64,000 bases of DNA from Macrocystis pyrifera (taxonomy: Eukaryota; Sar; Phaeophyceae; Laminariales; Laminariaceae), in assembly GCA_031763025.1 (NCBI GenBank), contig JASSKH010000021.1, positions 992,001 through 1,056,000 of the forward strand, read 5' to 3'. This document shows, piece by piece, positions 65 through 63,956 of this stretch (position 1 is its first letter; each line of letters begins with the position of its first letter). The translations under genes and the position numbers were made by a program. The notes under the pieces are model-generated. The model made no database searches, was not told the origin of the DNA, and saw nothing but the letters and a program-made list of their open reading frames with translations.

Positions 65-3000
65 GTAGCGGTGTCCTCCGCTTATGAAATTTGCATACAT
101 TTCAACCATTCCCACGGCGGAACCTGTTTTCTTTTTTTCCAATGACGACTTTTTTACTTGAATTGAACATTATGCTAAGGTTACCATTGCGTACATACCA
201 ACTGCACGTTTAGGCTATTATTAGAACAATAATAGTAGCACGTGCCACATAATGATGCCGACAGCCTGACGCTCTAGTACTGTCGATCGCTATGTATGTA
301 TAGTATTAATAACTGCTTTCACCAAAGGTTACGTTACGTACATACCAACTACAGTTCTAGACTGACGTAATAGTGCAAGCTGGTGCACTGTCGGCCGCTA
401 TGTGTTTAACTACTTTCCTTCGCTGAAGGCTCCATTGCATACGTATCGACTGCTGTACACTTTTAGACTCCAGCAGTACTATAGAGTAAACGTATATGAC
501 ACAACATGTTACCGACAGGTTGACGCTCACGCGTTGTCGAGCGCAATCTGTTTCCTTCTACATTACATACTGTACCACTGTAGTCTACACGTTTAAATGA
601 AGTAATATGCAATATTAATATGCACCAGGTACACTACGTTACACATCTGTGAAAACAAATCACCCCAAAAACAATAATTCTGAAACGAAAAGGTGATATT
701 TCTGGGTCCGTATTACGTTCCTCCGTATTAGTACCGTCAGCCTGACGCGCCTGCATTGCCGCCCGCTATGTATTTATTAGCTATTAAAAATATGTATTGC
801 CGTCCGTTTTAACACGACGATCGAAATTGTGCCACCAGGTGGAACCAGACTGCAGCTTAGTGAACGGCCACCGCGCCACGGTGACCTCGATAGCCTTCTC
901 GCCGTTCCAGCCGTCACTCATGGCCACAGGTAAGCGTGGGAAATAAGATAACCCCATGGTGAACAGGTAGGCATATGAATACTCCCATGACAACAGATAA
1001 GCATGCGGCAAGAGCGTATTAGTCTAGTAGTGTATTGGTCTAGTTCATGACACTATTGTTGGTATAGCCCCATGACCAATGCTATGATAGTGGATTGTTT
1101 GTCACATGACCATTGCATGTAACCCCATGGTACAAAGGTAAGCATATAGCCTAAAGACAACACGCGCGCTTAAGTCGAGCTGTAGCCCCATGGCCCCATG
1201 CAGTGATTGAGTGATTGAGTGATACAGCCTAGCCCATGGCAACCCTAACGATACAACACCATGCCAAACGCTACTGGATTGATTGCCACGTTGTGTAGAG
1301 CGAATTAGTAGTGACGCAAGGAATGTTATCGTGTTATTGGTCATTTGTGATAATGTACGAGCGGGGTCAGCGCAAACACGGATAGAGTTCTTATCGTCGC
1401 ATGTAGTGAGTGAATCGCTGCAAGTCGAGACTTGAAAATGGGAAGTACTGACTCTCTGGCACAACAAATGTACACGCAAGTCCAAGCATTTTGAGGATCC
1501 GACTCGATCTTGCGAAGATACCCAAGAAAACTCAAAATTATAGTTTTTTGCCGACTTTTTGGCATATATTCCATATGACAGTTTTTTAAATCGTCGCTCC
1601 CGATCAAGGTACTTTTTGGGGTAGACAGTCCTGAAGACCAAGGAGACGATCGATATCAGTTGCATTGCCCAATTCGTCACCCATCAAGCGAAATGACAAA
1701 CAGAATAATTGCTATACATTGAACGAGTAGTGACGAGAACGAATGGCATTACTTCGATGCCTCGCTCAACTTGAATAAATTTGCTGTTGGCGCTTTTGCT
1801 GACTGTTGCTATTTACCGGCTTTCCTTGCACTGCTGTACTGCTGGCTGTTGACCGCAGGAAGTGAAGACAGCACCGTCAAGCTGTGGAGTCTTCCAGAGA
1901 GCGGTCTGAGTGAGGGCAGCATGGGTGTTGATGATGCCTTGGCAGATCTCACTTTTAGCTATACCTCGATCAGGCAAGGCGCCTATTGATAGGTCATTAC
2001 GTACTGTTTACATTACTGCTTATATTGCTGTTTACATTGCTGCTTCCGTTACTCAGGGCAGTCGTCTCTCACACTATGGTTGAATCTCGTACAGTAGTCA
2101 GTACTCGTGTCTTGTGCGCACAACATCAATACGTAGTTGTGCCTCGTACAACAGTTTTGTGTCTTGAACAGTAGTTACTACAATACTTTTATGCTGTACA
2201 ATATTTACGCCTCGTACACAATAATGTTGCGTCTCGTACAGTAGTTGTGTCTTGTACAATATAACAACAGTTGTGTATCGTACAATAGTTGTGCCTTGTG
2301 CAGTCGACAGTTGTGTGTCGTACAATTACCTCTGCCTGGTGCAATACGTGTACTTCGTGCAATGGATTTATTCTGCATCATTGTTGGCTTTCGACGTACT
2401 GTACCGCACACGGCGAAAAAAGTGTAGAGCAACCTCAGCGAACACAGGTAGACAGAGCGTTATGAAAGACTGGCTGAAGCTGCCAAGGTTTCAAAAACTA
2501 TATCATGTCACTCGAACCGTCTTCCCTTTTAACCTATTTTACTGCTGTAATTGCCCTTTTGATGTTTTAGAGTGGCTGCCGTTTCGATTGCTCTTTTTCT
2601 TTCGCAAGCCGTGTCCCCCAAGCTTCGCTATATGTTGTTCGATATCTCTGGCAGCCTCGGTGCCAGCTTGGAAAGATTTGTTCAAAGCGTGGCATTTTGA
2701 ACACGGCTGGGGAAAACGTATACAATACCGACCCTTTAGTAAGAGACCAAGATACTGATCCAGGCTAGATTGGTCGATTTCTTATTTAGGAACGGGTGTG
2801 TTCCACACTAATTTCAGTATAACCGCCCCAGAAGTCTTGTTTTCCCGGAAATGCTAGGCTGAGTTTCTTGTCGGTCTCTCTCTTTCTTATCATATTGGGC
2901 ATACCTTATCGGAGGGCCTGTGGTGCATGGTATGTGCTTTGCTGTCTGTATTCAGGCGGCAATGGATGCCTGGGCCGTTTCTCCGACGCCAGGCTTATTT

Positions 3001-6000
3001 CGCGGCCTACTTTTTCTTTTCTTTTTTTGGTGCGCACAGGTATGTGGAATTCAACCCAGTGGCCGAGAACGTGGTGATGACTACGAACGCCGACCATAGC
3101 GTGCAGCTCTGCGACGTGGCAGCGGCAACGGACACGGCGGCACTAACGATAGACGTCCACACTAGCTCCATCAACAGGTGATACAGACTATGTACCTATG
3201 TACCGTTACAACACGTGATGAGATCGATAAATAGCACACCCCCTCGGACGAATGTCACTGAGATTACAGTTGACTTTCTCGACAATGGGTAAGATGCAAA
3301 CGCCGAGCGATGCATCTGTGCAAATCCCTAGTCGAGATTTCTCCAAAGCCACCATTTTCGGTGAGTATGCCCCCCTTGGTTTTGAGAAACTCGGCTCGGA
3401 AAATCGTCGCAGGGGGTGTGTTATCTAATGTCATTCCCTGATATGCGATAGGCAGCACTCCTCCCTTATCCTGCCCTGACAGCAGACGTCCACAACCGCC
3501 CCGTCAACAGCTGATGTAGACTATTGTGCGATATGTCACTCCTCCCTTATCCTTCCCTAACAATAGGCGTCGACAGCCGCTTCATCAACAGCTGATGCAG
3601 ATTATTGTGCGATATGTCATTCTTCCCTAATCCTACCCTATCGACAGACGTCCGCACCAGCTCCACGAACAGCTCATGTAGACCAATGTGCTATAGGGCA
3701 GCACTCCTCCCTTGTCTGTCCACCACGAGCTTGGTGCAAGCAATGTCTGCTTGCTCGGTGAAAACCCGACGTGCTTCGTCTCGGCATTGTGGGGAATCCA
3801 TAGTAGATGGCCATACGACTACGGCCATGAAAAACAATGAGTACACCCCCCACCGAGGTCTCTTGGCCGAACAATGCAGCTCAGTGCGTAGGATTCAGTA
3901 TTTTTTTCCGACTAGACTGTATGGCCCTGTTCAGCATGATAATACTGCTTACCTTGAAGAATAATACGACGTAGACAAATCTAGCACGCATGCTGCACTT
4001 TATTCCTTCAAACCTGGACTATAGATCTGTACAGTGATAGTGATGCGACTGATGAGCATACCGATCTTTATCATGACCTTCTTCACGAGGTCATTCACAA
4101 CCCGTAGCGAGACGAAATCCTCGATCTCACAGCTGAGTTGTGTATACGTTATTTTTCAATACCGCACAACACTCCTCCGTACAAGGCAGTTTATTCCATT
4201 TATTGTATTCGCCTTTCTTTTTCCTCTCTCTTTTTCCTCCCTAGTTTATTCCATGTGCTCTATTCACATTTCTTCTCCCTCTCTCCCTCATAGCCGTAGC
4301 TCAGATCCGGGGTCACATAGCAGGCTCTCCTCCCCTCTGCCCACTTCGATTCGTGCCTTTTTTGTCTCAAGAATACTTCCGTACTTCAGTCCTTTGATCC
4401 CTCGGCGAATTGCGTCGAATTGCGCCTACCCACTCTAGACGCTCTAAGCAGTTGTTTCCGTTGTACTTTCGCACACTTTTTTTATTCTTGGTGCTAGAGT
4501 GCAGTGAGGCAGGCGGGTGATTAGTGATGAGCGCACTCGCTTTGGGCCGAGCACGGAATGTGCTTGCCCTCGATCGACTCTATCGACTACTGCTTCTTGT
4601 GACATGGACACAGCCTACCTCGATAACCTCGATCGACAATTAATAATCTTGCACTTTCGCACACAAAATTTTTTCCAGCACCTGAGGTGAATAGGTAGAT
4701 GTGCAGACACAGCCCGAAAGAGCGGGTTTGATGCGTACGGGGCGCCAAAGAGGTGACTGAAACTCCGTCACGTGGTACTTTCAAGCACGACAGGTTTCCG
4801 TAAATACGCTGCATATAACACAACGGGTTTCCGTAAATGCGTGACATTGGGCATCACGGGTTTCCGTTTGACAGAGAGCACAACGAATTTCCGTACGTGA
4901 CCTACTAATAGGGCATATATCAGAGTACCTGGTAACGATTTTCCGTACGAGGCATAGAGCATTTCAGATTTCCGTAAGCACCTAATGTAGAGCATCACGG
5001 ACTTCCGTGTGTGAGATACAACATATCAAGTAAGAGGTAATAGATGCCGGCTTTCCGTACATGACATGGGAGCACAACGGATTTCCGCATGTGACATGGT
5101 ATGGATCACGATGGCTTTCTGTACGCCAAGTAGACCACTCATTATACTGACCTCAGAGTTTATGTAACGCCGATACGCCTTTTGTTTTATTTTATCCGTC
5201 GCAGTGCTTGCTTCAACGGAGACGGCAGCTTAATTTCCACCACTTCTAGGGACGGCAAGATTCGAATCATCGACCCGAGGGCGGGGACGGTCGTATCCGA
5301 GGGGAAGGGCCACCAAGGGCGGAAGTCAATGAAGGCGGCCTGGTGCTTCGGCGCGGGCCGGCGGGAAGCGCTCGCCACGACGGGCTGCGCGGCCGCGGGG
5401 CACCGGCAGATCTGCCTGTGGGACCCGGTAAGAGCCATAACAAGAAGCAGAAGCAGAAGCAGCAATCAGTCGCCTTTTCTGTACAGTTTTTTTTTCAATT
5501 TAAAGTTTACTAGATGGTGTGTGGTGCTGGTTCCTACAGTAGCTTCCTTGGTTCCTGTGTATGGTGGAGAGTGTATAATGTTTTATCTTCCCTGGGTGTA
5601 CTACAATAGCAGGGCAGGGCACTGGGCAAAAACTGCTGCTTGTGTGTCGTGCGTGTGTTTGTGCTTGTGTGTGTGTTCGTTGTGTGTATTGTGCGTGTGT
5701 TGTGTGTTGGCTTCGCCGGAACGACTCCGCGAAACAAGACAACCCAAAGGAGCGTTGCGTGATGTTTTAGTACGGTACCACATACCAGGTATCAGGTATA
5801 ACCTGGATGCACCCCGGTGTCTACTATATACCGTGTTGTGCACCCCCTTGCAAATATGCTATTTTAGGAGACCGCGGCTTTACACCTTGACTGACCGCTC
5901 TCCCACACTAAAACTAGTATTTTAGGCCAAAGGAGGCCTCACCGCGCCCGAAAGGACCGGTCTTCTACGGTGGAACATATTAATAATAGTAATACATAGT

Positions 6001-9000
6001 AATCAGAAACAAATATGGTGTGTGAACATGGTGGGATACATGTTTTTTGGGTATATCGTGGGTTCTGATTCTTACTACATATGCCCACCCAGTAGTATCA
6101 GAGTTGCAGAGCACAGGCTGCGGAGTATTCTCTCTCCTCCGCCCCCTTTCTCTAAAGGCCGAAATAATGACTTCATATGTTCCCATATTCTATTTGTCGA
6201 ATGACTTTCGCCGTTCGAGTTTCATGAGCGCGTTCATGGGTATTCACTTGTAGCTATCCCCTCATGAATGTGGCTCAGCCTAGGGAGGTAGACGGCAATA
6301 AGTCGACGTCTACTCATGTTGAGGCCGGCTATTTCTCGTCCGGTCAGCCAGTGAAGGACTCTGACCCCCGAAACCTTTGAAATTATGTATGTTGCAGCTT
6401 GAGACAGTCCACGTTTCACCCTACTCACGGAGCTTCGGTCCACAGCCCCCCTGATTATGTAAAGGCAACGGTTGAGCTGCACGATGCGAATTGGTCCATG
6501 GCTGATACAAGCGCATGATGTATACACGCCCGGAGATGGTTGGGAAGAAACGGCATACTACCTGGTGCATGATTGGCATGATCACGATTCACACCCGCCA
6601 GTGAGGGTTGACCAACAGCACACTTTACATCCGCGGATGGTTGAAAGCACGATTTCCATGGGTATGCAGACGACCCGTGCTACGGTAGGCGTTGAAGTTA
6701 GGGATGCCGTAACACTTTTGAGCCCCAACAGTTGTCACTCACGGAGCTCCTCAACCATTTTAGCCATTGCAACTGACGAAGTACCCAGTAACTGTGGATT
6801 CATTGTTATTTCTTCAAAAGTGTCAGTATTTAGCCTATGGGATTGTGTACCGGCCTTACAGTAGCATGCTGTGCTCCTCAAGGTCGGTTGTTGTGTGCTA
6901 CGGCCTAGTGCAGGTGTTGAGGAATAGAGCTCAAGCGAGAAGCCTCACAAAAAATAAGTGATACTAAGTCACATGGTTGACATCATGCATCATGCCACCA
7001 ATGGTTGACTTACACCCGACAATGGATGACAGCGCTATTTCGCATCCGTCAATGCCCAACGATTTCCGTCCGTTGTTGGTTGACCCCACCCGTTGAGTCC
7101 GTGGATGGTTGTCCGTCGATGGTTGTCCGTCGATGGTTGACTCGACGGCTTCCATCCGTTCAGGGATAGCCCTACCAAATGAGAACATCCATGCTTAACA
7201 AGATTCATATTCCGCCAATGGGTGACGTCATTTGTTGGCATCACCATTGTCATCGGTTAGTGATTTGCAGAATGGTTCACATACAGCATCTATTCACATG
7301 TGATACACAACATATAACATATCAATCAATGGTTGACGCTACCCTTTACATAGGTAAATTGTTGAGACGAAGCACGATGTAACCCCCCCGGCGGTGGTTG
7401 ACAGAGAACGGCGTTTATGTATGTTGCATCTCTAGATGGTTGGGTTATTTAAAACGGTTGACATCGGCAAACCGATACCAACGCCACGATTCACACCCGC
7501 GTATGGTTGACGGCATTGTTATATTTGCATCGTTCCAAAGTTGACGTCACGGTCTATTTCCCTAAACCCGATCATTGAGACAGCGATTCCACCAGTTCAT
7601 GATTCACCGAACCCCTTCCCCCCCCCCCCCCCCCCGAAAACAATTGTCGTCTTGATGAGTGGGAGATCGATCCGGCTGAAGTTGAACAGAAGGAGGGGTG
7701 GCGGCCATGAATCTTTCACACCTTGGAAGGATCATCGAATCCCACAGACAGTTCACATCGAGATTTTTCACGGCAGCTCTATTCCCGATATTTGACGGTA
7801 TAGCTCATGTTGCCGGGTGGGAGCCGTACAATCTGTATGAGCTATTAGCACATGACATGTTTCCTGGGTTGGGCCTGTCTGTGCTATACAGATAGATCCT
7901 GTACAACAACCTATCATAACGGCAGGCGAGGAACCGAAGGGTCTACAGCTCATAATCTGTCCGAGGTGTGTTCACGCTCACCACCTCTCGTGTTGCCTTC
8001 CGTCCTCCGTATCCGTCGAACCCTTTCATTCAATCCCGCAGCGAGATTTATCTTCGCCTTACTCCACCAAGACCGTTGACAGTTCCAACGGTATTTTGCT
8101 GCCCATATTCTGCGAGGCCACGGGGTTGCTGCTCTTGGCTGGAAGGTGGGTTCGTGCAGAATACACTTGTCAGCTGGTTTTACGTTTGAGCAGAACTTGG
8201 AGCCGCTCCAGGATCTCTCCCAGCCAACACGTTTCGTGGTTTCGCTTATCCTGCGTCTCTTTTTTTATATTTTTCTTATCCTGCGCGTGCAGTCTAGACC
8301 AAGGTGTGTCGTTTAGGTCTTGGTGCTGTAGCTGCTTCGAGGTCCCCCCGCCAACACGTTTCGTGGTTTTGCTTATCCCTACGCTGAGTTGTGATCTGCG
8401 CTGACGTGTTTGACGTATTCTTCTTGTCCTCCGTGTGTAAAGTGTGTCATGTACCTGGTATGTCTTCTTGCTGGTGGGTGTGCATGATGCCAGCTTTCGA
8501 GCGATGGGTCTCCTTTCGATATGGCTCTTGCCTCATACCAAGGTATTCCGAGACAACAATATGCATATACGCAGAGCGAAACTGCCAGTGCCTGTCTGTG
8601 TATGCCCAGCTACAATACCGGGTACCTGGTGGCGCATGCTTGGACGGACCTTTTTGCTCCGTGTGGCGTCTTTCGTCCATTTCCTTTGCATGAATTCACC
8701 CTCATCCTGACATGCATGTTTGTCCTCGGTCTACTGTATTACTGATATTGTACACACGATAATTCACACAAGATATTGTGCACACGATAATGTAGACATG
8801 ATACTGCCACATGATACTGCACACTGATAATCTATACACGATAATCCACGCACGATAGTCTACGCGCGATAGTGCACACACGACGATCTACGCACGATAA
8901 TCTATGCACAATAATATACACACGATAACACACGATAATATACGCACGATGAGTTATGCACGACAATCTACACACAACAAAGAGCACAAGATAATCTACA

Positions 9001-12000
9001 CAAGGTGACACAGTCATACATTATCGACCGACTGTACTTCACAGGGGAGGGACGGGCGTAAAATACTACGAGCTGAGCGACGGCGACCGCCCGGGCTCTT
9101 CTCTGCCGGAGGTGCACTTTTGCCACGAGTACAAGGCTACGGGCCCGCCTCTGAGCGGCATGGCGCTCCTTCCACCACAGTGTCTGGATGTCGGCACCGT
9201 GGAGGTCGCGCGTGTGTTGAGGCTCACACCCACGACGGTCGAGCCAGGTGGGACACGCGATGCGCCATCGGCCCAAGGTCACTTTCGACACCTCGGTTAC
9301 TGTTGTTGCGGTCGTCGTTGTTGTGGTTGTTGTGGATTTTGTTGTGGATGTTGTTATTGTCGTTGTTGTTGTCGTTGTTGTTGCTGTTTTCACATGAACT
9401 AATCGCCGTTGGTAGCAAGACAGGCTTAAAAAAATTACGTAGTGGAAGCAAAATAATCAAAGTACGCAGGATGGGTGGTCGGCACCTACTTCGAAACTTC
9501 GTGCCCGCACCAAGAGAATATGCCGGGTTACGGTCTAGTTTTGACCCGTCAAGGCCTGTTTGGACTTAACGTACCATTTTTTGTGTGGGAAAGTCATTGA
9601 CGTCTGTTCTTGACGTCTGTCCTTGACGTCTATCCTTGACGTATGCCCTCGACGGCTGTACGTCAAACGACGAGAGTGCTGTCAACCACCGCATAATGTT
9701 CGAGTGCAAGCGGTCGACACCATGTATACCTGGTACGTATCTATGGTATCGGTTTTGTGAGGACGAAGCATCAGTTGTCGACGAAAGTCTCTTCAACCAA
9801 TTGAATTGGGTTTTTCCAGCAATATCGGCCTCAAGACAGGTACCCTTGGTTGTCCAGTGCACTACGTAGACGCAGCATAGAAGTTTGCCGTGCGCGCTAA
9901 CGCGTGCGGGGGTCTGCCCTTGATGGGTTATTTTTGTAGCTTTTCGGAGGTTTTCCTCTCCCAAAATGGCCTCATTTGTTGTGCAGTCCATCTGCTGTAG
10001 TCTCAAATGCGTTCATGTTTTTTTACGTACTGGGGCAGGGGGGACTTCAGCGTCATCCCGGGAGGTGTCGCCAACGCTAGCAACGCGAAGTCCACCGTGT
10101 CTAACATGCTCGTGTTGAGAACTTTTTGAACGCCCCACGAGCGTGCACGGTGACCCTTTCCCCCCAACCGTTGTACACATCGGACAGATCATCTACAGGT
10201 AGCTCACTCAGCGCAGATCCTAAGCTGCCGCTGTGAGATGTTGTGCAGGACTTCAATAAACCCAGGAAACACGCGCTAGGTCATGCGGATTTTACGGCTC
10301 CCAACCGGTAACATGAAAGCTAGATGATACAGATCAGAAATATATCTGCGCTGAAAGATCTACTAGAGCATGAAGTGGGGCTCTGCTTTATCTGATCTGT
10401 CCGATGTGTAAACCCTTCTGGCCGAGTGCGCGGTGCTCACCCCCCCCCCCCCGTGTTTTTATACCTTGAGTTGATAGTCCCATCCGCCGACTGACGTACG
10501 CTTCCTTTCTCCACGCTGCCGTTTTTTTTACGGCACTATAATAAATATTCGTAACAGTTTCTTTCATCCTGCCGCGATCCGGCGACCTGAAGGACTACTT
10601 CCAGGATGATGTGTACCGGTGAGTTGGGCCCACGTACTATGTGCTGTCCAAAGGATTAAGGTTGCCTTGTCAAAGCAACTACTTTTGTTTCCCATGTTGA
10701 TGGCTCGCGGTTCTGTCGTGCCTACGCAAATCGAAGGCTCATGACCTCTTGGCGGAATCCCCGAGGTGGGCGTGAGTGCGGAGCTCCTGAGTTACTGCAG
10801 GCAGCCCGCCGCAGTGGCAAGCATTGTGCCGCGTTGACGACTTGGTCTATTCAATAGCTGGTAGATTTTAGACAAATTTGTGGAAATGTTTTCCATTCCA
10901 AACTCTAACCCTAACCGGGAAAGCCTACCCAAGAACACCTGAGAAAGCTGTGCGAATGAAGCTGTTCTGAGAAGTTGGTGTACACTATTATATCAACTCT
11001 TGTTGTTCAAGCGGGGCCATGTCTAAATGTGCACATTGCATGTTTTACTGCAGTGAGTCCAGAATTGTGTGAATTCGGACGTGCTCGCCAATCGCATTGC
11101 TTGTTGATCAGCGGCTTGCGGCATCCCTCCCCCTTACACCGCATAAGCGTCGCGTGCTTTACCCCCGCTCCCTTCCCAACGCGCGTTTCTGCCTCAAGCA
11201 CTATAGACTGTTAAATAGACTACATATCCTGGTATGCACTCCGCCTTTTGCGCCAAAGTATAGGGTGTTGTGCTATTCGTCTGATGCAGCGTTGTGCTTT
11301 TGCGCGCATACGAGAAGAAGCCAGGAACTCCGAGGAAAGCAAAAACTTGCAAGCCATTTTTTGCTTATTTCCTCCCTGCAAATTGATTCCCTTCCCCGCA
11401 TACATCTGCATACATACACCCCGCTGTAACTGCAAATTGCGTTGCTGTGTATTTCCAGCATATCTTAACCCTGTTGGTTATGCACTAACTGTCCATAAAC
11501 CTGAATATAAGTCTAATTCCAAGCGTTTCGTCCCCACAATGGGAGTGAGTGCAGCCCTGAAGGGGTTAACATTTTCTGATGTTTTCGAGATCCGTGAGTG
11601 ACGGGCGTTGTTAAATCTCGCCTCTTCTGGCCCTATGCAGTCCGGTGCGTCCTTCTACCCCTTGCCTGAGCTCGGCGGAGTGGCTGAACGGTGGGAACCT
11701 GGCGGACGCCGAGGGGGGAAAGTACCAGTCGCTGTGCCCACCAGGTGTGTCACTCGAGTACAGGCTGGTTGAACCTGAATAATCCCATTTGTTTCTCCCC
11801 CACGACTGCTACGACTGTCGCTTGCGGCATCCATGACAAGTACCCGAATGTCACATATTTAGTATGCTGGTATGCAGTAACCGTCTTAATAACCCTGACG
11901 GTTCATAATCGACGATCGCGAAAAATAAAGCGTAAAAGGTGGGATAAATCGCGATTCAGAATCGACACTTGGATATCGATCTCCAACACCGCATCGCGGT

Positions 12001-30900: not shown

Positions 30901-33900
30901 ACCTTCAACTGCGGAAGAGTCGGGCACCAAAAAACGATCATACCTCTGTGCGAAACCAAAGCGTTTTAAGGTCGTACAACTTGTCTGGAACATTAGTTTA
31001 TGGTGAAGTGGTCGTTGTCGTGGTCGTTGTCTTCATCATTGTTGTGTTCACTGCCAATGCTGTGGTCGTTGTCGTGGTCGTTGTCATTTTCGTGGTGTTT
31101 TCCCCCATAGAGGTATTTTTAGCTATAAACGGTCTACCAGGTAAGGTTTAGTCCCACCGCGGATTCGACCCAACACCACCCAAGCTCACGTATACGAACT
31201 TGTACTTGTTGCTGTCGCAGCTGATACGGTAGTCCGCCTTCATGTAGCTAGACCCGTCTTCGAAATCTTGGCAATCGAATGCCTGTAGAATCTGTTGCGG
31301 TGTGCATGAAGCGAGGGCAGGAGGGGGGAGGTTACGTGGAGTTGTAGGCTTTAGAGTCAAAGTACTTCTTCAACCATGTTGTCCGTGAACATAACATGCC
31401 TCGTGAGGGGGGCGAGTGGGGGTATTCATGTCATCCATGGCCGTAGTCGTACGACCATACACCTTCGCATCTCTACAATACCGGGACGGCGAGCGGGGAA
31501 GTTGGGGTTGTGAAGTTTAGAGTCGAGAATAAGCTTTCAACCATATCGTCGTACGCACGCCTCCTAGGGGGGGTTTAGAGTTGTAGGGTTTAGAGTCAAG
31601 TACACTGCTTCAACCATTTTGTCCGTAAACACGGCTCGTAGAGAGAGGAGGCGGGGCTCACGAGTGTGCTTGTCACGATGTAGAAGAAAAAGCCTGTCAG
31701 CAGCACCCCGCCCGCCGTTCTGTCCCATGCAGCCCGCCTCTTGGCCACGTCCGATCCTGCCTTCCTGCGACACACAAAAACAACGGCAACCACGGTCTCA
31801 GCCGATTGCTGTTTACTTTACCATAAAAAAAGTACAGATGTACAATGCAACAGTCATTCCAATATACCAAGTACAGAAAGGAATACTCGTGTCCCTTTCC
31901 GGCGGTACACAACAAGAAAGCCGACGAAACAATTTACCTAATTGTCATGTTACATACTCCCGTATTTCCTCTATTGTTATGTACCTGGTACGCGTTACTG
32001 TCGTTTCTTGGAAGGAAACGACTTGCCCTGTAGTTCTCACAGCGGAGCAAGAGCAAGCTAATGGACTACCAACACGAACACATGTGTGAGTGATCAAGAG
32101 AACCCAGGGACAACCTGTATAGTGGTCGGGCCTGTCCCATACTATGCTACTACCACTACTACTAACACTCTAACAATAAGGCCGGTGGTATTGTAACACC
32201 AATACAATGGTATTAATAGTGCAATAGTCTTTACTAATACCACTATGAATCGTGACTATAAGTCGGAAGCTGACAATCCGTTTTTTTCATAGCAAAAACA
32301 CACTGGTACGGCATCTCACTTGATAGTCCTGGCGTAATACACGACGAGAGCGGCCACGATGCTCAGCGGTAGCACGGTGGTGAAGACAAGCTGCTTGAGG
32401 TAGTCGGGCCGGAAAAAGCAGCTCTGACTCAGGATGCCCCAGAAGTTCAGGCTGATCACGGATACCTTGTCCGCATACCTGATGCATGGTATACGGTACA
32501 CGGTATATTAGAAAATGGTAAATAGTACCTGGTACCAGGCATACGGAAACCTTATCCGCATACCTGACATATGGTACACGGTATACGGAATGTGAACTAT
32601 GGTACACGGTATAGGGTATGTGAAATATGGTAGAGGGTACACGGGTATATGGTATACGGTTCGGGTATGTTGAAGATGGCGTACCAGGTATTGCCTATGT
32701 TATGCGGTATCTGGCACATGATACGGGATACACCGGTATAGGGCATACGGTACTGGTATGTGAAAATTGTATACTAGGTACGGTATGCTTCGTCATGGTA
32801 TACTGTGTGTGGTATACGGTATGTGACATATGGTACATGGTACGAAGTATATGGAATACGGTACTAACACGTGAATGAGGTCTTCCAGGCACCAGGTATG
32901 GTTCGTACGAAGCAGGGAGATGTTACGGCAAGGCAAAGCAAGGCAAGGCAATTCACACAGCATCATACGACATACACAAGACAGAGACACCAACGCACCT
33001 ATTGAAAGCCTCCGGCCATTGCACATCCAGCACGGCAGGGAAGGTGGTGACGATCTGGAAATGGGCAACGATGATCTTGAAGCGCACGATGAGGGTGTCC
33101 TTCCACTTTTTGAAGAACGCGACAAGCCTAATGGGATGGGTATAGACAGAGAGACAAATTTACGACATACCACTTCACACTTTTGGGGACATCTATTCAT
33201 TACTAGAAGCTACTGTAGAGTTGAAAAAAAATTGGTCCAAGGTTAACCGGTGCATACATCGTATTGTTTTGAAGTGTTAACTCTTTCGTGACTTGCATAT
33301 AGAACAGTGACTTGAAAAGCGTTAAGTGCGGTCTAGGAAGAGCGTACTATAGTGCGAGGCTCATCATGCTGCGCGCGTGTTGTACATCTCCCTAAGTTCA
33401 CCATGACGTCCTTCGGACACATCTCGTACCTCAGTACAGCCCGGCATGTTTCGTGTGGCCGGTGCTATGTACATATAACCGTCATTGTTTTCGAGGTTTT
33501 TCACCTCTGTCCAAAAGGGCGACGCTCGGCTCGGTAGTTGTCCTATATTGAGCTACGACGGACGACGGCATTGAGACCCACACCCTTCACCGCGATGAAA
33601 AGACCCCTAAATCCTTTAAAAACGGCCGAAAAAAAGGCCCAAATCCTCTAAAAACGGTCACAAAAATCCCCGCAGTCTTACCACACGAGGACAACATGGA
33701 CCATAGCCTTCATCCAACGCGAGGGAAAAACCACGAGGGCAATGGACACATGTTAACAGCAGCAAAAGCTATCAACAAGGTGCCTCTGTGCATACAGAGG
33801 AAGACCGGTTGGCGTCCATGTGCGGCGTGGGTGTGGGAAGAAGCATCGGCAATGCTTTCTTGTGGATCAGAGGTCTTTGCACGCCTGCTGTGGCTCGTGT

Positions 33901-48006: not shown

Positions 48007-48026
48007 GGTACCTCCATCTTTAGCAC

Positions 48027-49364
48027 ATGCCACGTCTAGTCCCGCAGTTGTATGGCGACGAAGCCAATGCCGCCGATGCACAGCTTGCACTGGCAGCGGA
48101 GGCGGATGACCTTAGAGCTGCCCAGAATGCTATTGATGCCGGGGCACACATTGACGGATCCAATCAGCTACTGCAGTACCGACCCCTCATGATGGCAGCC
48201 GGAATGGGAAATGTCAGCATAGTGAAGCTCTTGATCGAAAAAGGTGCCAATATCAGTGCCAAGTGTGAGCGTACAAGAGGTTCTATGGAGAAAGACATGG
48301 AGGGATCCCAGGCCACACATTTCGCGGTCCACAACAACGAGGTTGCCATCCTTCGCTTACTCCTGGAAGCTGGCGCTGACCCCAACGCACACACTAGTAA
48401 TCGACAGCACACGCTGCTGGAGATGGCATGCGACGGGGCGGATGCACCGAAGAATATGACCATGGTACGAGATCTGCTGAAGGCGGGCGCCGACCCCACC
48501 CGTGCGAACGCCATCGGCTGCATTGCCCTGCACGCAGCTGCGACGCGCGGATTTGTGGACGTCATCGACGTGCTCCTGGCGCACTCCCCGAAATCGGTGA
48601 ACTGCTATGGCAACGACGGTTGTACGCCTCTTTGTTTGGCGGCGCTGGGGGGTCACGAGGGGGCAGTCCGTCACCTTCTGGCTGCCGGAGCGAGGAACAA
48701 AGAGATAACTGAAATGGACGATCTTACTCTGGGGTTCATGCCGGGCGAGGTCTATCCCATCGTCCAGGCGGCATACCACGGCCAATTGAACACCGTGCGC
48801 ATCCTTCTTGCAGCAGATTTGCAGGTGATCGGAGGCGTTCGCGTGATCCCGCGTGCTTTGTGCGCCGCCGTCCGGACAAGGCGCGCCAAGCTCGTCCGGC
48901 TACTGCTGTCCTTTGGGGGACATAAGATGAAGAAAGAGTGGGCGAACTGCTGCTCCAAGCAAGCACCGATGCTCATGTACGCCATTTCGTTCAGCACTCT
49001 CGCCGTCATCCACATCCTCCTCGAGGCAGGGGCAGACGAAAAAGCGATGCTTGCTGCCCAAGGCGTGCATCCCACGGTACAATTTTCTTCACTAGGGGGA
49101 ATACCCGGCCCGGACGCTGCCACGAGAAGCCCCATGGAGGAAGTGGCAATTCGCCGAATGCTGGCGCGGACCCCAGCATACCGTGCTCGATCGTGGGCGT
49201 GGCCAACCAAAAACTTCAGCGCGACTCACGGTGGTGGTGGTGGTGTTGGTGTTTGTACGGGGGGGGCCCTCTCGCCGAGTCGAGCGCCAGGTGCCTTCCC
49301 GAACTTGTGCGTCTTCCGGCCGAAGAACAAAATGACGGTATCCGTCGACGTTTTCGCTAGGTGA
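48027..49364 (+). CDS. Ankyrin-repeat protein, single exon
   Basis: A 445-residue ORF in GC-rich sequence. Eight to nine ankyrin repeats run from about residue 45 to 390, with typical cores: PLMMAAGMGNVSIVKLLIEK, ATHFAVHNNEVAILRLLLEA, CIALHAAATRGFVDVIDVLL, TPLCLAALGGHEGAVRHLLA, VQAAYHGQLNTVRILLAA, LCAAVRTRRAKLVRLLLSF, LMYAISFSTLAVIHILLEAG. The start is the ATG at 48027; MPRLVPQLYGDEANAADAQL is a plausible capping helix. No signal peptide or membrane helix is seen, so it is probably cytosolic and serves protein binding. The last 55-60 residues include a GGT repeat (Gly/Val run) and are not ankyrin-like; they may be read-through into an intron or UTR. It is intronless beside intron-rich neighbours, so retroposition is possible. 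Partner unknown. Confidence 0.85.
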   Translation: MPRLVPQLYGDEANAADAQLALAAEADDLRAAQNAIDAGAHIDGSNQLLQYRPLMMAAGMGNVSIVKLLIEKGANISAKCERTRGSMEKDMEGSQATHFAVHNNEVAILRLLLEAGADPNAHTSNRQHTLLEMACDGADAPKNMTMVRDLLKAGADPTRANAIGCIALHAAATRGFVDVIDVLLAHSPKSVNCYGNDGCTPLCLAALGGHEGAVRHLLAAGARNKEITEMDDLTLGFMPGEVYPIVQAAYHGQLNTVRILLAADLQVIGGVRVIPRALCAAVRTRRAKLVRLLLSFGGHKMKKEWANCCSKQAPMLMYAISFSTLAVIHILLEAGADEKAMLAAQGVHPTVQFSSLGGIPGPDAATRSPMEEVAIRRMLARTPAYRARSWAWPTKNFSATHGGGGGVGVCTGGALSPSRAPGAFPNLCVFRPKNKMTVSVDVFAR

Positions 49365-52840: not shown

Positions 52841-52859
52841 CGCGCTTCGCGCGCCTCAT

Positions 52860-54225: not shown

Positions 54226-56449
54226 GGCTCGGAAAAATAAGGTGCTACCCCGACCGCGTCATGTTTTTTTTCTCTCTGGAGAGGTGAGTAAAATCCCAAA
54301 ACGCCAGAAGAGTTAAGAAGGATTAATCTATGTCCGACAATTAGAGAAAACGATATCACACTCCACACCAGGTAATACTGAAAAATAACCCAGCGGGGTG
54401 GGATTTCTGTACAAATTTGATCAAGAGTGTTATTGTATGTATCACGTTTTGGACATGTTTTTATAGCACCCCATCTGTTTAGGTATCGGGATGTTGTTTT
54501 GGCGTGTCGATTTTTTTTGTTTTGTGGATATCTTGGTAACTGTGAGCACTTCTATATTTGGTTAATGATATGCCGTTTCATGCTGCTGCCGTCTGTATCA
54601 TGTCTGCTGTGCATTGTGTGTTCTGTCTCAGGTACGTCCAGAAGGACTAAACGACAGGAGGCGCTCTAGAGACTTCCCAGAAGTCTGAGCGCGAGCTCCG
54701 AGGCGTGTTTTTTTACCCAGCGTTGACACAATAGTTGATAGCTCACACTATTATTAACTCCCAATTGTGTCTTCCGTTCCGAGAAAATTCCCGGACGGTC
54801 GGGGCTAGGCTGTTCATCACTCCTCATTACGTCTTCGTTCCAAGCAAATCCCAGGCGGTCAGGGTTAGGGTTACGTAGGTTTTTAGGTCAAAGATAATTG
54901 ACTTTTTTGCTCGAAGCTGAGCCAAGGTTTTTATAGTTCTCCTTTCTCAGGTGGTCGGGGTTAAGATACTAAAATCTCCTCGTTACGGCTCATCTCCGAG
55001 AAAAATCCCAGACGATAGGGGTTATGGTTAGGGCCACTGTAGGTTAAAAATAAACTATTAATAGTACATGTATATTGACTTTTTGTCATAGCTGGGCCAA
55101 GGTGTGTATATGGCCCTTTTTTCCGGGGGGTGGTGTCACTGATGATCACATTGGCACCTGCTTTGTGGCCACATAAACATTGTACTGCTGCTTATGGACA
55201 GCAGTTTGGAGTTGATTCCACTTGATTGAGTACTTGTCTGCGAGTACGAGATGCAGCACCTATTTATATCAAACCAAGGGTACAGCACCTGTACCAAGAA
55301 GCAGAGTTCTGGTCAACATTAATGTACCGGTATGTATATGGATGTTCGCACCGGGTACCTTGAATATTTAAATTGTATCAGGCACACATGGTACCCTGTA
55401 CAAAGCACGTGGTAGACAGCAGATCAGCACGTAAACTACGTAAAGGTAGAGACCCCCTGTCGAGGGGTTTTGGGACAGAGGGGAGGGTGATCTGCGGCTA
55501 GGGTCAGGTTTTGGGGAATTTTGCCTCGTTATTTGCCTTCTCGCTGTGTGCTGCAACCGAGTTGAAACTGACACGACATGGAAATATGTGGAAGACTTTC
55601 AATTGATCCTGGGGAGCTTTTGCTTTATTATTGTGTCTGTGAGGACATTTATACTGTTTGCTCAAAGACTCTACGGGGCATGCTCAAAGACTCTACGGGG
55701 CACGCGCAGAAGCGATGCATGCCTACATATCAGTAAGAAGAAACCCGCTAGGATATCCTAGGATAGCGCAGACGCCACAGGACATTTGCAAACATTATCC
55801 AACACTGGATCCGAGTAATTTGTCCCAAAAAAAAACATGGGCAGGTGCAGTTCTGAACGTGTCACTACAGCAGTACGTACACGCGGCCCTTTTCAGGGAA
55901 AACTGACAAAAAAATTTTACAGCATCGGCAACAACACAAAATCAGCCCGGGCTACTGAGGTAGGGGATAGGGGGTGTACCCGAACTACAGTACACAGATA
56001 TTTCCGAGACGAGCGCAGCATGATACTGCTGTCACTGCATGTTTTAAAAAATATATTTAGAGGCGTTCTGCGGCGCTTCGACTACGTACATAACTCGTAA
56101 ACGGTTGGTAAGACCGGATGTCCCTGACATACTTTTGGTCGTTACAAGTCTACCCTGGGTCCCATTTAAGTGCGTTACACACGCCGCATTTGCAGACTCA
56201 AACTCCTTGCAACCGGGTGTCCAAATGCGTCCAACCCTCAGTGATTGCATGGAGATGCAATGCCCACGTAAATGCCGACGTACGGTTTAAAGGGCCACGC
56301 CCGATAAAGGTGCCTGCAGAATCAAGATTCACAGTAAGTGTACTTCTGCTGTATGTTCGTTCGTTCGTTAATTTGTGTCCGCTTTTAAATTAGTTTTGAC
56401 TGGACAACCCGTCCGTGTCATGATATGTTGCCCACCTTGGATAAGTCAT

Positions 56450-57265: not shown

Positions 57266-57500
57266 CTTCAACTACCCGGAAAGCTCGCCCTCGACCGTGA
57301 ACATGTCTTCGGCGATGAGAGACCACACAGGGACACCCGAAGAAAACAAGGAAGAAACAACAACAGATTAGCATCTGCAGCTACCAAATAATAGTACGCG
57401 CAGATAGCATGTGAAGCGTTTGACAACTCGGCCTAAGGTCACCCTTTACAGTGAGCATGTCTTCGCTGATGAGGGATCACACCGGCACATCCAGAGAAAA
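57266..57500 (-). repeat. Two decayed copies of the APRT stop-codon region
   Basis: Copies at 57266-57340 and 57421-57500 repeat the end of the last APRT exon; plus strand GCTCGCCCTCGACCGTGAAC and ATGTCTTCGGCGATGAGAGA, against GCTCGCCCTTGACTGTGAGT and ATGTCTTCGCTGATGAGAGA in the gene. Spacing is about 155-165 bp. Both lie downstream of the stop. Confidence 0.8.
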
Positions 57501-57591
57501 AAGCGAAGAAACAACTTGGGGCAGCAATTATTAGCGTGTGTAGCAGCTATTTGTATTAATAGCATGTTCAGCTGCGATAGCAGCGTTTCGA

Positions 57592-60500
57592 CTACTCGGT
57601 AGTCAGCTCGCCCTTGACTGTGAGTATGTCTTCGCTGATGAGAGACCACACCGGGACATCCGCGTGAACCTCGTGCAACTTGCCCACTCCGTTCAAAGCT
57701 TTCAGCTCGATCATGCATGCGCACTCCACCACCTCAACCCCCTGCAAGGGACAGACGGAGCAATGAGGCCCATGATTTTCGAACGGTTTTGTTTACTTTA
57801 ACGTTGTTTGGGGCGAAAACAACAGGACAATACAGGAATTTCCAAAACTAAAAAGAAATTTGACGGCGCGAATAAAAATCAGAAAGCTTACGTAGCCTTC
57901 GCAGTTGTAAACGGGTTTCTCAAGCACGCGGCGTCACCGCCCATCGGGACAGCACGGCAACACCAATGGGCGGGACATCCATCAACAAGGTTGAACTGAA
58001 CTCGATTTTTGGGCGTGGCGAGGGCCAAAAAAACAATTTCTCACCAATCCTTTCACGAGATCAACGCCAGCGATGAGCGTTCCACCGGTGGCGACCAGAT
58101 CGTCGACGAGAACCACGCGTTGGCCCGGAGTTGCCGCCGAACGCTGCACGCACAACGCGTCTAGACCCGCATCGTCGTCCCCCTTGTACTCCTTGGAGTA
58201 CGTCTTACCGTCGACCACGTTCGGCATCTTCCCCTGAACATATGATATATGTTATGTATTATAAGAGGGTATGAGCGCGGAGGTCCAGGTAAGAACCACC
58301 GCATAAAACATATTCAATGAATGCATAGGGAAATATCAGCAGTCTAGTTATGAGTCATAGCAAAAAGCGCGTTCAAATGTATAGGGGATTATAGCACCCT
58401 CACGACCGATGTACGAGTACTATATGTACAACACACACCCAGCTAGCAAAGACGAAAGCCGGTATCTATCAACCACTTTGGTTGAACTCCCAGCTAACGC
58501 GCTGCTTCAAAAACACTACTGTAAGTCGAGTACAAACTGCTACCATCCCACAACCCAGCAAGCACGACGGATTTATGTGGCCAACGTTGTAACCGTCGTT
58601 TGTTTTCGTCGCTCAACATTTCCATTCCCAAGTGTGTAGTTAATCCTCTCAAGTCCCAGGACCTGCCAGAGGCGCATGACATCCATCTTTCACATACCGG
58701 ATCGACATGATATGTTACGTCTGGTCCAGCAAGATGCAGCAACTGGCGATACAGGTGCAACAGTAGAGGCAGTGATGATGCCTGTTCGCGTGTTCTAGCG
58801 GTCTGCCAGCACCGTCCCGTGATGAACCCATTTGGTGTTTCCATTCACTCAAGCAATGCACCAAAGCAATGCCCACCATGAAGGTCACTTCTTCAAACAA
58901 GCTCAGAGTATGTATGAATCAACACGCCTTTCTCCAGCAAAAAAACACAGATTATGCTCCGTTCGGTTCCCGATCTCAAATAAACTAGGGCTGTGATTTG
59001 GCTGACTCTTAAGTCGCCTACTAGGTATCACAGCAGTTGGGTATTAGGTGCTAGGTCTTACATTACATTCAGTTACGTGCGGTCATTTACGGAGTTCTGC
59101 CTCCTTGTAACTGACCCTCGGGTCATTTACGGAGTTCTGCGTCCTTTTAACTGACTGGCGCATTTGAAAGTCGACTTACGTGTATTATTGATAAATACTT
59201 CCTGTATTAACAAGTCAACTATTAATAGTCGGCTTACTTTTGTCACCCAACTACTGTAGTGACTATCCATCAACTGACAAGTAAGAAACCCACCACCTTA
59301 CTCATAATCCTCCACAACTCGGAGAGATCATCGATCCCCAGAGGATGATCTAGATCTTTTGAGACAGATCTATTCCCGATGAGGTATCATATGATCTAGC
59401 TCGTGTTGCCTGATGGGAACCGTACAATCTGCAGGATCTAGCACATGTTTCCTGGGTTGGATCTGTACTGTACAGAACCTGCACAGCATCTCATAACGGC
59501 AGGTGAGGAACTAGATTATCTACTGTAGAAAGATAGATCAGCTAGATCATCATCTGTCTGTCTGTCCGAGGTGTGTAATCGTCTCCCTTATGGTTCACGG
59601 ACCTTTTTCCTCAGCATGAAGAACGGGATGTTGAGGGCGAGTGCTACCGGAGGACCGATAATAAAACCGCGAGCATCGAACCCCCCGATAGCGTCGATGT
59701 TCATGCCCCTGCAAGCACCAGAAAAAAAATCGTGAGAAAAGTAGGCAATAGCAGTATCATAATGGGGTGTGACAGCAGAGGGGGGTGGGGCAATAAGGTG
59801 GATGTACTAAAGGGTGGTAAGACGGTAAAGGGGGTGTACTCGATAGGAGAGATGCGCTCGATCTCATGCATGGCCGTAGTCGTATGACCATAGACCCTCG
59901 CATCTCTGCAATGCCGGGACGGAGCATGTCGGGTTTTCACCGACCAGGCAGACATTGCTTGCACCAAGCGCGAAGCGCCGTAAGGTGCCCGACGAGTCGC
60001 ATGAAGGGCGAGCTGCATCCTACTAAGAACCGCTTATGAGGCGGACTTGCATATGGGTGACAGCTTCAATGAGTTAATTCCATTTCCGGTGTAGCCACTT
60101 CCAGAGACAGCAATCGGAGTACTATGTATCTGCCTCTTGGGTGCCTCACCATAGACGTGACACGATCATTCCCACTTGTGCGGAGTAAAGGTTGTTCACC
60201 CCGCACAAATGGTCTACTCGACAACCAGCTGTGACCGACCGCGAAAAAAAAAAGAAGCGATACCCTGGTTGTCTAGCTCAACTAGTGAGCGGCATGTTTT
60301 ACATTGTCGTTGCCAACCGACGCCAACCCCCAACCTATATATAATGGGGGGACGGGGGGACAGTAAGGGGGGGGGGGGTACTCATTGGTTGCTTGCCTTA
60401 GTCATTTGATCATTGACCACACATCCCTTTCGAGACGGAACACCGTTCCTACTCCAAATAGAGACACCTCCAACAATTGGGCGCTTATTACGTTGTTTCC

Positions 60501-63500
60501 ATATATTACATAGAAACTTTTTGCTCATCTTATCCCCTTCCTGTTTGGCCGCCTGTGGCCACCATCTATCTCCTAGGATAGCGATCGTTTTCTCGCTGCT
60601 ATCTAGCGTACCAAACTCCTCCATGTCACATTCGTCTATTTCCCCCATTTCCTATCCTAACACATCCCGTTCCCCTTGTACATTTCACATTCTCCTACTA
60701 TGGGAGTTCTACTCTATATTGCTTTGGCACACGGGCACATTCGTGCATCTACTTCCTCCTCCTCCCGGCTACTGGTATACCTTTCTTCTTTCTGGCAGGT
60801 CCAGGTCACCCACATGTAATCGCAGTTTCAGCGTTTTCACGAACTCCATTGGGTCGTGAAAATACGTTTTCAAACCTATTCCTTCCCTCAATCCCCAATA
60901 TATCTCCAAGTGTTTTCCGATTCCACCTTGTTTCTTAGCGCTAACCTTTTCCTTCTTTCTATCCTTTCTTCTACTTCTGCCTTATAGCTTCCAAACTTCC
61001 CGGCGGACATCACCTCTGCTTGGTTTCCCCCTACATCCTTCCATACTTGCTCAACTACGCCATCCCACCGTATTCCAGCTCGCCCTTTTGTTACTTTCTC
61101 CCAAATAGCTCCAACTATGGCAACCTATTTTTTGGCATGTTCCTTACTTTATATTGCCATTTCCACTTTCTCGTGTCTCTATTTGTCTTGAGTGGGTGCA
61201 TTCTCAGTTCTGCCCTTGATACTGTATTATTAGTCGTACTTGAGAATCTTCGGATTTTTTTAGCTGTCATCTGCACTGTTTCCAACTGTTTTACGAGCTT
61301 CGCGTTCTCTTCCCATGTTCCTCCTGCATATTCTAGCTTTGGTACTTATCACCTTCATCAGGATACATCTCTCAATCCTAGTGTCAAGGTGCGAGTCTGT
61401 TAGGATCGCATCCATCTTGCCTACGAGTGCTTTACACTTTCCTATTACTTTTGCTATACTCTATGTGTATCCCAAGGGCAGTCTTTTGATATCCCTACGC
61501 CAAGGTATGTATACTGGTCTACGATCGGCAATTCATCTTCTCCCCACTTCCAACTGAATTTTATCGAGTTCACCTTATCTTCGCTACAAACAACTATTAA
61601 TACTGCGCATTTCTTGACGTTCGCCGTCACCCTCGATTTCCTAGTGTATTCTAGTGCCTTCTCTATTTGTTTCTGCAATCCTTCGGGTGTTTCTAATATC
61701 TCCACGAAGTCATCCGCAAACATCAATCCCGATACCGTATCTTCCCCTACCGTGACTCCCTCCTTTGCTGCCTCGACTGTTACTATCAGGTCGTTAATAT
61801 ATATCTTGAATAGGTTATGTGACAACGTACATCCCTGTGCAACTCCTTTTAAAATATCAACATACTTCGATATTTTCCCCGTCCAGCATCACAGCACTTC
61901 TCGCACATTCCGTTCCGTCATATTGTTCACCATTCTCCACATCTTTCCTCTGATTCCTATTTCCCACAAATGTTTCGACAAATCCATTTCCTCCATACTG
62001 TGTCGTACGCTTTCTGTGCGTCTAGAATGAAACTGTACGTTGTTAGTCCCGCGTCTTCCCTGCCTTGGATTATCTTACCTAAGGTGTACACATGGTCTAC
62101 GCAGCTACGGTTTGGCCTAAACCCTGCTTGCCCTTCGCTTACGTTGTCTTCCTTCTCCATCATTATTCCCATTCTATCGTTCAAAATCTTACAAAATGTT
62201 TGCGTGTTGTTCTTAGTAGCGTCATCCCTCTATAGTTCCCCGGGTCAGCCTTAACTCCTGTCTCGAATGGACATACTACTACATCTCTCCACCTCCTACT
62301 GTAGGTGCGTACTCGTTTTGCCGGGGGTGTTAATAAGAGCTACGGTAACACAGTAAGGGGGGTCATACTAAAGGGTGGTACTGTCATAAGGAAGCGTGAC
62401 ACTACCGGGGGGGGGGGGGGGGGGTAATATCATAATATCATAAGGGGGGTGATAAATAGGGGGGGGGGGGGGGGGGGTAAGACAACAAGGGGGCGTGGCA
62501 AGATAATAAGGGGGTTGCTAATAAAGAGGGGGTATTACATTAAAACCCTTTCGGGATTTTTTCGGGACTTGGAAGGCGAAAAAGGACGAAGAAAACGGCG
62601 ATTACAACAGCGGCCACACACAGCAACCCGGCGCTGCTGGGCCAGGGAATGAAACGTTCAGTGCCGGAACTACCCAGTAACTTGTCACACAACACGGTCG
62701 CATCGTGGTACTTCTCGTACCGCAGATCGCTATAACCCTAGAGTCTACTGCAGAGGATTGGTGATACCGCGCTTCTCCACTTCCCGGTCGATGGAATGTA
62801 CGAGCGTTTCTTTCACGCTGACCTGGTACCAGCATGTTTTCGTCTGAGGTGTACAGCACTGGTATGAATCAGGTGTCCCATCAGGTATGTGCATTATTAG
62901 GTTTTATGTTTTCTTTCCTGAGGTGTTTGTTCAAGTCCGTATTGGAGCGTGTCTTGAGACCACGCCCTACAGCAGATGGTGTCGATGTTCGATGAGCTCA
63001 TGTGAGAACAACAACGACAATACCAGCAACTACAGTATCATGCCAACTATGCCAACTATTATGGGGGTCTATAGTTAACATGACCTATGGCATAGATAAA
63101 AACCTATATATTTAGGTATTTTTACTAACAATATTTGGTCCTGTTAACTATGGACCCCCGAAATAGCATGTCAGGGTGCCATAAGGGTCAACAATGCTGG
63201 TCTTGTTGCTGCGTTCCGGTCGAAGGAACGTGCAAGCGCTCCGCTTCTATCACACTTACCGAATCACAATGCTGATATTGTCGTTGCGTTCCGGCCGAAG
63301 GAACGTGCAAGCGTTTCGCTTCTATCACACTTACCGTCGTGTCACACGGGTGATAATATGGACGATTTTCCATGTTGGTTTTCTCAGCAATCGGGGGAGT
63401 GCAAATGCCAAGAAATGTGTCTACGGAAATATTTCAACGAGATGATCCCAAAGCCGCCATTTTTCGTTGCGTGTGTGTGTCTCCCGTGTTTTGGAGAGGA

Positions 63501-63956
63501 TAGACTCGGAAAATCGTCCCGGGGCGTGTGCTATCTGGCGTGTTCCGCGATAGTCGAGACATGGCCTTCGTGGGCAGTGGGAAGGCAAACAAAAAACATA
63601 AAAAAAAAGAAATGTTACGGGCGAGTACGAGTTCCTTTTGTGCACCGCGCCAAAAAAAAGAGGTACTTTACCCCTTTCGAGCTGGCTGATGCCAGGTTCT
63701 ACGACCAACCGCCGACCGAGATTCATACACACGATTCTGCAAACCCTTCAAATCAACCAACGCACACAACTTCACGACAGTTTCAAAAGTCCTGGTGCGC
63801 GAGTTACTGGCAACAGCTATAAATGTGATACGTACACCATATATTAAGAGCTTAAACGGGAGGAAAATCTGACTAAGAAATACGAGGGTATGTACCTGTA
63901 TCTGTCGGCGAATACTTTGACCGCCAGAGCAAAAGCCTCCGGGTCGGCGCACATAC
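57592..63956 (-). CDS. APRT: Adenine phosphoribosyltransferase, 5' end off the window
   Basis: Catalyses adenine + PRPP to AMP + PPi in cytosolic purine salvage. Minus-strand exons in order: 63896-63956 (MCADPEAFALAVKVFADRY), 59603-59708 (GMNIDAIGGFDARGFIIGPP, VALALNIPFFMLRKK), 58045-58233 (GKMPNVVDGKTYSKEYKGDD, then CVQRSAATPGQRVVLVDDLV, ATGGTLIAGVDLVKGL), 57592-57741 (GVEVVECACMIELKALNG to the stop, KGELTTE). All phases match. VVLVDDLVATGGT is the PRPP-binding signature; ARGF and the VVECACMIEL strand are typical of the family. About 168 residues are visible, so roughly the first 25-40 residues (PDFP-type start) lie beyond 64000. The donor after 59603 is weak (AAG|GTCCGT). The 4.2-kb first visible intron holds a LINE and a SINE-like element. 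Frames are intact, so the gene is probably functional. Confidence 0.93.
59320..59580. mobile_element. MITE, CTCGGACAGAT family
   Basis: Left end CACAACTCGGAGAGATCATC, right end CATCTGTCTGTCTGTCCGAG then GTGTG. The interior has GTTGCCTGATGGGAACCG, CATGTTTCCTGGGTTGG and ATAACGGCAGGTGAG. It abuts APRT exon 59603-59708. Confidence 0.8.
59815..60335 (-). mobile_element. SINE-like C-tail element, full length, in an APRT intron
   Basis: Reversed copy: GGGGGTGTACTC, CATGCATGGCCGTAGTCGTA, CCGACCAGGCAGACATTGCT, GGGCGAGCTGCATCC, CACTTCCAGAGACAGCAATC, an A tract and CTAGCTCAACTAGTGAGCGG. Confidence 0.85.
60385..62325 (-). mobile_element. Non-LTR retrotransposon (LINE), 5' truncated and frameshifted
   Basis: Reverse-transcriptase fragments read in order on the minus strand: PGNYRGMTLL, NVSEGQAGFRPNRSCVDHV, FILDAQKAYDTVWR, HNLFKIYINDLIVTVEAAKE, GLMFADDFVEILETPEGLQK (the [FY]xDD catalytic motif), PIVDQYTYLGVGISKDCPWD, CKALVGKMDAILTDSHLDTR, then a C-terminal part with GAIWEKVTKGRAGIRWDGVV. 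At least three frameshifts or stops interrupt it and the 5' half (endonuclease) is missing, so it is dead. The 3' end reads GTGGTCAATGATCAAATGAC then AAGGCAAGCAACCAATGAGT and a C tract. It lies inside an APRT intron, in gene orientation. Confidence 0.9.
62396..62535. repeat. G-tract minisatellite
   Basis: Runs of 5-20 G separated by TAATATCATAA, TGATAAATA, TAAGACAACAA and TGGCAAGATAATAA. Similar GGGGTG(G)TAA units are at 59770-59835. Confidence 0.8.
63055..63172. mobile_element. Foldback MITE, GGGGGTCTATAGTTAACATG arms
   Basis: TATGGGGGTCTATAGTTAAC pairs with GTTAACTATGGACCCCCGAA. The interior TACTAACAATATTTGGTCC is the reverse of that in 12688-12806, so they are the same family with diverged arms. 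Confidence 0.85.
63190..63345. repeat. Tandem duplication of about 73 bp
   Basis: Two units with TTGCGTTCCGG(T/C)CGAAGGAAC, GTGCAAGCG and CGCTTCTATCACACTTACCG. Confidence 0.85.

Follow-up and report, generated by a model that had tools for sequence, protein, structure and literature searches.

Exon-edge copies in introns and flanks of the kelp Macrocystis pyrifera: short-range tandem duplication and the exon border

Genes of the window and their copied edges

The window, i.e., the whole stretch of 64,000 nucleotides of Macrocystis pyrifera DNA analysed here (contig JASSKH010000021.1, positions 992,001 to 1,056,000), carries three genes whose exon edges were followed. The coronin gene lies on the plus strand. 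Five of its exons, numbered from the window start, were used, up to position 9247; exons 1-4 are backed by the reading frame and, joined, match coronin-1A (2aq5) with an E value of 2.6e-27. A gene of five exons on the minus strand encodes a protein that looks multi-span, and it is called a membrane protein by appearance only, since a Pfam search gave no family at E 0.01. The APRT gene, also on the minus strand, is modelled with exons A to D, of which B-D match Pribosyltran (PF00156, E 8.7e-17). An Rfam scan of the whole window at gathering scores returned 0 matches. An uninterrupted frame of 446 codons with ankyrin-like repeats (judged by eye) occupies 48024-49364 of the plus strand. A dispersed repeat forms two stretches at about 10171-10417 and 10687-10831; a search with 10000-12000 found 41 genomic places at 70-83% identity, its own among them, with 40 candidates scored.

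Copies of exon edges were scored in two ways. In the single-copy test, 25 exon bases and 25 intron bases were aligned to the intron-side flank; its first run covered 16 edges. In the multi-copy test, copies of a 32-base edge were sought within 500 bp, and the scores of its four best ones were summed and compared with 60 controls. As controls, each query was also aligned to non-cognate targets of equal length. In the APRT, exon 3 and exon 1 sets, the first alignment is a trivial self-match and was left uncounted. The exon finder had window exons in its training set, and the window edges used in the final edge tests were set by hand.

In the multi-copy test, 4/27 window edges exceeded all 60 controls (4/28 when the acceptor of APRT exon A is included): the donors of coronin exons 1 and 3, the acceptor of a membrane-protein exon and the APRT stop. 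The remaining 23/27 did not exceed all 60 controls. The initial annotation had placed copies at about nine exon edges and held that chance could not explain them. The copies are real and the number was too high, at 4 of 28 edges; the argument against chance holds for the four edges above all controls and for those only. Its statement that donors, acceptors and stop codons are all represented stands, with two donors, one acceptor and one stop among the copied edges.

Coronin exon 1, the first in the window (839..929, plus strand), was placed by six-frame translation and sequence and ends in CACAG, followed by the donor GTAAGC after 929. Its donor edge recurs as a degenerate family at 950..1140 of the same strand, recognized by the multi-copy test and by alignments. 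The best aligned copy (981-1011) is identical at 23/31 positions, and kindred pieces lie near 950-969 and 1120-1140; by eye, GT after AG is retained in 2/3. The four best copies sum to 84 against a control maximum of 66, and the edge is significant only as a family, the best single copy not reaching significance (p = 0.093). The acceptor of this exon gave a weak single-copy score of 26 (p 0.013) and was rejected, as later tests did not place it above all controls.

Coronin exon 2 (1859..1973, plus strand), set by reading frame and homology, showed no edge copy in the multi-copy test (rank p 0.25 for the acceptor and 0.97 for the donor). Intron 2 (1974-3039, plus strand) apparently starts with a GC donor, with ATCAG before GCAAGG at its beginning and CACAG at its end.

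The donor edge of coronin exon 3 (3040..3177, plus strand; six-frame translation, homology and sequence) is copied within an 81-bp minisatellite of three units found by TRF and alignments at 3456..3695 of the same strand. Each unit holds one copy (3473-3536, 3557-3617 and 3638-3694), identical at 47/64, 47/61 and 44/58 positions, respectively. The copies span the last 35-38 bp of the exon and the first 22-24 intron bases, and by eye the donor GT reads CT in 3/3. The edge scores 50, with a control maximum of 36 in the first single-copy test and 28 in the run with 1500-bp flanks.

The membrane-protein exon at 32320..32478 (minus strand) has an acceptor reading GCATCAG before GTATGCGG. An alignment places a copy of this edge at 32536..32618 of the same strand, with 66/88 positions identical and the AG kept (by eye); of the query, it covers 31 exon and 56 intron bases. 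The copy adjoins a degenerate array extending to about 32864. This edge scores 64 against a control maximum of 28 in the run with 1500-bp flanks.

The last APRT exon (57592..57741, minus strand, from the gene model) ends in TAG. Alignments and edge tests revealed two further copies of the coding 3' end and the 3' flank downstream of the stop, at 57269..57588 of the minus strand, with the stop copies spaced at 169 and 154 bp. Compared with one another, the two share a longer unit (116/171). The stop edge scores 36, with control maxima of 24 in the first single-copy test and 32 in the run with 1500-bp flanks. The copies were compared codon by codon over 57 bp each, 57435-57491 and 57281-57337. 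The first differs from the last exon at 9/57 sites, 9/9 of them at third codon positions, and contains an in-frame TGA. The second also has 9 differing sites, distributed 3, 2 and 4 among the codon positions; its frame is open across the 57 bases and meets a stop soon after. By eye, neither copy has an AG directly before the aligned part. To judge from these 57 bases, in a pattern noticed post hoc, the first copy may be former coding sequence or an alternative last exon.

In APRT exon A (63895..63956, minus strand, from the gene model), neither edge is copied above controls: the donor has a rank p of 0.93, and the acceptor at 63956, with flank beyond the window included, scores 18 against a control maximum of 26. 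The acceptor of exon D scored 26, with 0/300 controls as high, and was dropped when later tests did not place it above all controls. The intron between exons A and B contains broken open frames at about 60700-62300 (minus strand), which by eye and by motif look like a reverse transcriptase.

Exon edges compared with the interior of flanks

Sampling comprised the window, seven kinesin loci and 20 loci taken at a fixed position, 2.0 Mb, on each of 20 contigs, which together amount to 327.5 kb out of 537 Mb (genome of 537,376,219 bases in 223 contigs). The kinesin set consists of the 27 of 131 genome matches that fall inside the seven fetched loci. Some of its edges are uncertain, with weak splice scores, and were retained; one donor near a locus end was dropped for too short a flank, which reduced the set from 54 to 53. 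Ab initio prediction supplied 124 edges; the 250-bp test lost 2 of them and the 500-bp test 4. At a score of at least 15, there were 116 predicted exons against 38 in reversed sequence (all loci), and the 122 ab initio edges thus include false exons that pull the edge rate towards background. One predicted exon at L009:802 (plus strand) has its donor edge copied about 400 bp downstream with 21/22 positions identical; this exon resembles the final part of a class II lysyl-tRNA synthetase motif.

With 100 controls per edge, a copy within 250 bp outscored all controls at 16 of the 202 pooled edges from the window, the kinesin loci and the 20 sampled loci (7.9%); chance would give about 1%. The same test at intron-side positions 75-675 bp into the same flanks gave 277/2555 (10.8%), the flanks being unmasked so that neighbouring exons may fall among these positions. 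Exon interiors gave 19/404, and anchored exon interiors 4/160, within 250 bp. The ratio of edge to intron rates is 0.73 within 250 bp (95% interval 0.40-1.18) and 0.67 within 500 bp (0.43-0.95), both from a bootstrap by locus, chosen because neighbouring positions are not independent. Fisher odds ratios of edge against intron range over 0.64-0.71 in four versions (p 0.145-0.235). The pooled edge frequency is not above that of flank positions, and the exon border, taken as the seed in the initial annotation, consequently appears to have no special seeding role.

The subsets vary around this result. Within 250 bp, copies were found for 2/27 window edges against 61/348 flank positions, and for 6/122 ab initio edges against 169/1525. 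The kinesin edges are higher than their flanks in this test (8/53 against 47/682, above all 100 controls); the figures are 4/53 and 39/682 at a stricter score margin of 4, and 3/53 and 43/668 within 500 bp. The 80 anchored edges gave 10/80 against 108/1030 within 250 bp and 6/80 against 99/1011 within 500 bp, values that leave a modest edge excess possible. With 1500-bp flanks and a margin of 4, copies occurred at 3/27 window edges against 49/395 positions and at 3/53 kinesin edges against 47/764. The multi-copy test gave 4/27 against 34/185 in the window and 4/53 against 36/361 in the kinesin loci. A first ab initio run with a margin of 10 found 6/44 window edges against 15/132 positions at 100-300 bp, and 6/140 edges of the sampled loci against 24/410 positions.

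Along the offset from the border, the copy rate rises from 3.5-5.9% within the exon to 7.9% at the edge itself and 14.5% at 75 bp; positions deeper in give 9.0-13.8%. Of this profile, only the peak at 75 bp, the first offset sampled, could be put down to a border effect. TRF arrays with a period of at least 9 span predicted exon edges in 7 cases, while random placement predicts 12.1 (136 exons), and in 5 against 8.8 (95 exons), which likewise speaks against the border as the seed.

The comparison of cognate with random introns had been named beforehand as the one able to refute the idea of junction seeding. In this comparison the edges are copied well above expectation, at 16/202 against about 1%. 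A uniform process gives the same outcome as seeding, and this comparison cannot tell the two apart; used alone, it would wrongly suggest junction seeding.

Local duplication and competing explanations

Direct copies of 50-mers were found in 13.1% of cases within 250 bp, in 5.8% at 250-500 bp and in 3.0% at 2-3 kb (n=1567, all loci), and inverted copies fall from 4.2% to 2.8% over the same distances. In the 20 fixed-position loci, a strong copy lies within 2 kb downstream for 8.4% of 1160 test segments and upstream for 9.1%, with 0.7% in the pseudo-control. The copying is local, direct and distance-dependent. Arrays of a period of at least 9 number 171 and cover 21,290 of 327,500 bp (6.5%), with a median period of 24 bp and a median match of 83%. 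Among the 15 exact young duplications checked for microhomology, several are simple repeats, and the number is too small to support a claim; extra homology is absent from three exact non-simple units (22 bp at 55659 of the window, 21 bp at L028:1525 and 41 bp at L033:7765).

TRF arrays lie inside predicted exons in 11 cases where 6.5 were expected, and in 10 against 5.3. This excess counts against removal by selection, unless it stems from low-complexity false exons, which is probably the case. The claim that duplications are lost from exons therefore rests mainly on the anchored exons, whose interiors have the low copy rate given above.

Repeated slippage or break repair at the border had been proposed as the way in which introns grow here. 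The copies are indeed local, direct and beyond chance; the border as their source is the part that was not supported. With 13% of 50-mers copied directly within 250 bp, local duplication is common enough to make intron growth through repeated short duplication plausible, as far as sequence can tell.

The edge copies are probably best explained by pervasive short-range tandem duplication that captures exon edges passively, the border itself not being special. Short direct duplications of tens of bp to about 160 bp, on the same strand and mostly within 250 bp, would arise in kelp non-coding DNA and could start anywhere. When such a unit straddles a border, the original border in use would stay intact and the copy would be left in the intron or the 3' flank, where it would drift and might be further amplified with an array. 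Duplications lying wholly within exons would mostly be purged by selection. We infer that duplication arises through slippage during replication or through staggered breaks that are filled in and joined, and that selection acts in exons; the pattern of arrays and copies fits slippage or the joining of filled-in staggered ends.

It is quite improbable that the border itself seeds the repeats, for instance through breaks or polymerase stalling concentrated at splice junctions. The four clear cases in the window, at three kinds of edge, would accord with such seeding, as would the advantage of edges over mismatched targets (16/202 against 1% expected), the kinesin result of 8/53 against 47/682 in one test and the peak of the flank rate (14.5%) at 75 bp. 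Against it stand the pooled set, in which edges are copied no more often than flank positions and the 500-bp ratio is below 1, the 24/28 window edges without a copy above all controls, and the array-edge overlaps, 7 against 12.1 expected.

Another explanation, which sees in the edge copies what is left of duplicated or alternative exons and not copied junctions, is decidedly improbable. The first APRT copy, with differences at third codon positions only (9/57 sites), is what once-coding sequence would look like, and the second is open over 57 bases with a stop soon after; however, the former has an in-frame TGA, the differences in the latter are spread 3, 2, 4 across codon positions, and no AG directly precedes the aligned part of either. 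Moreover, the coronin exon 3 copies hold only 35-38 exon bases and the membrane-protein copy about 31. Chance similarity arising from the splice consensus and low-complexity sequence is an exceedingly improbable source of the edge copies. Several weaker edge hits are in fact simple repeats (CTCCTC in L034; GGGGCT, GTGGTG and GCAGCA in ab initio exons), but the controls are matched in query and in target length, and in the multi-copy test all 60 of them score below each of the four window cases.

Relation to mirage minisatellites and duplication-born introns

Amphioxus has minisatellites, called 'mirages', in which the repeat unit extends across an exon-intron boundary. According to the accessible parts of two reports (PMC3087553, PMC3902484), they were named in Adh3 and occur also in the globins BflGb6 and BflGb9, in PGBD5 and in troponin C. 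Both 5' and 3' boundaries are involved, the units measure tens to about 160 bp, and AG/GT is kept in some copies. The BflGb6 units are 81-100% identical, while the PGBD5 repeats are called imperfect. Among the marks of mirages are length polymorphism or somatic instability and regular splicing that goes undisturbed. The initial annotation knew of no description of such copying as a genome-wide process; to judge from those parts of the reports, the amphioxus mirages are the same kind of structure. Among the matches listed in the open-access literature, no report of border-spanning repeats in a brown alga was found.

If uniform short duplication supplies much of the kelp intron DNA, exon edges would act as built-in clocks, the copy in use being held by selection and the intronic copy being free, and both the age of duplications and the supply of cryptic splice sites would become measurable. 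A wider proposal is that short tandem duplication is a main builder of kelp intron DNA genome-wide and that some edge copies, such as the APRT copy, pass through a working-exon phase before decay, so that mirages would supply alternative exon ends; this is unlikely at present.

Creation of introns by internal gene duplication with AG adjoining GT is attributed to Rogers, Zhuo 2007 and Gao and Lynch 2009 in the available text of PMC3087553, and a potato RdRp case is given in that of PMC4974935. As in such duplication-born introns, a segment with splice signals is duplicated inside the gene in kelp; unlike them, the kelp copies accrue in existing introns. Small tandem duplications from the repair of staggered breaks are described in the part of PMC8355091 available, and the short direct duplications of kelp similarly adjoin their source; the three exact non-simple units free of extra homology belong to this comparison, and a link may exist.

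The comparison between kelp and mirages rests on one assembly. As in mirages, kelp units span the exon-intron boundary, at 3 splice edges (and 1 stop) among 28 edges tested, and both boundary types are copied, with two donors and one acceptor. At 73-77% identity, the copies of splice edges in kelp have decayed further than the BflGb6 units; since the imperfect PGBD5 repeats are filed with mirages, we take high unit identity as a property of one gene that does not define the kind. Unlike in mirages, the host is a brown alga and a stop-codon edge is also copied. Unlike the mirage reports, the kelp analysis includes a control, in which edges are not preferred over introns. Thus, kelp is a new host of the known mirage kind, to which it adds a control speaking against the border as seed.
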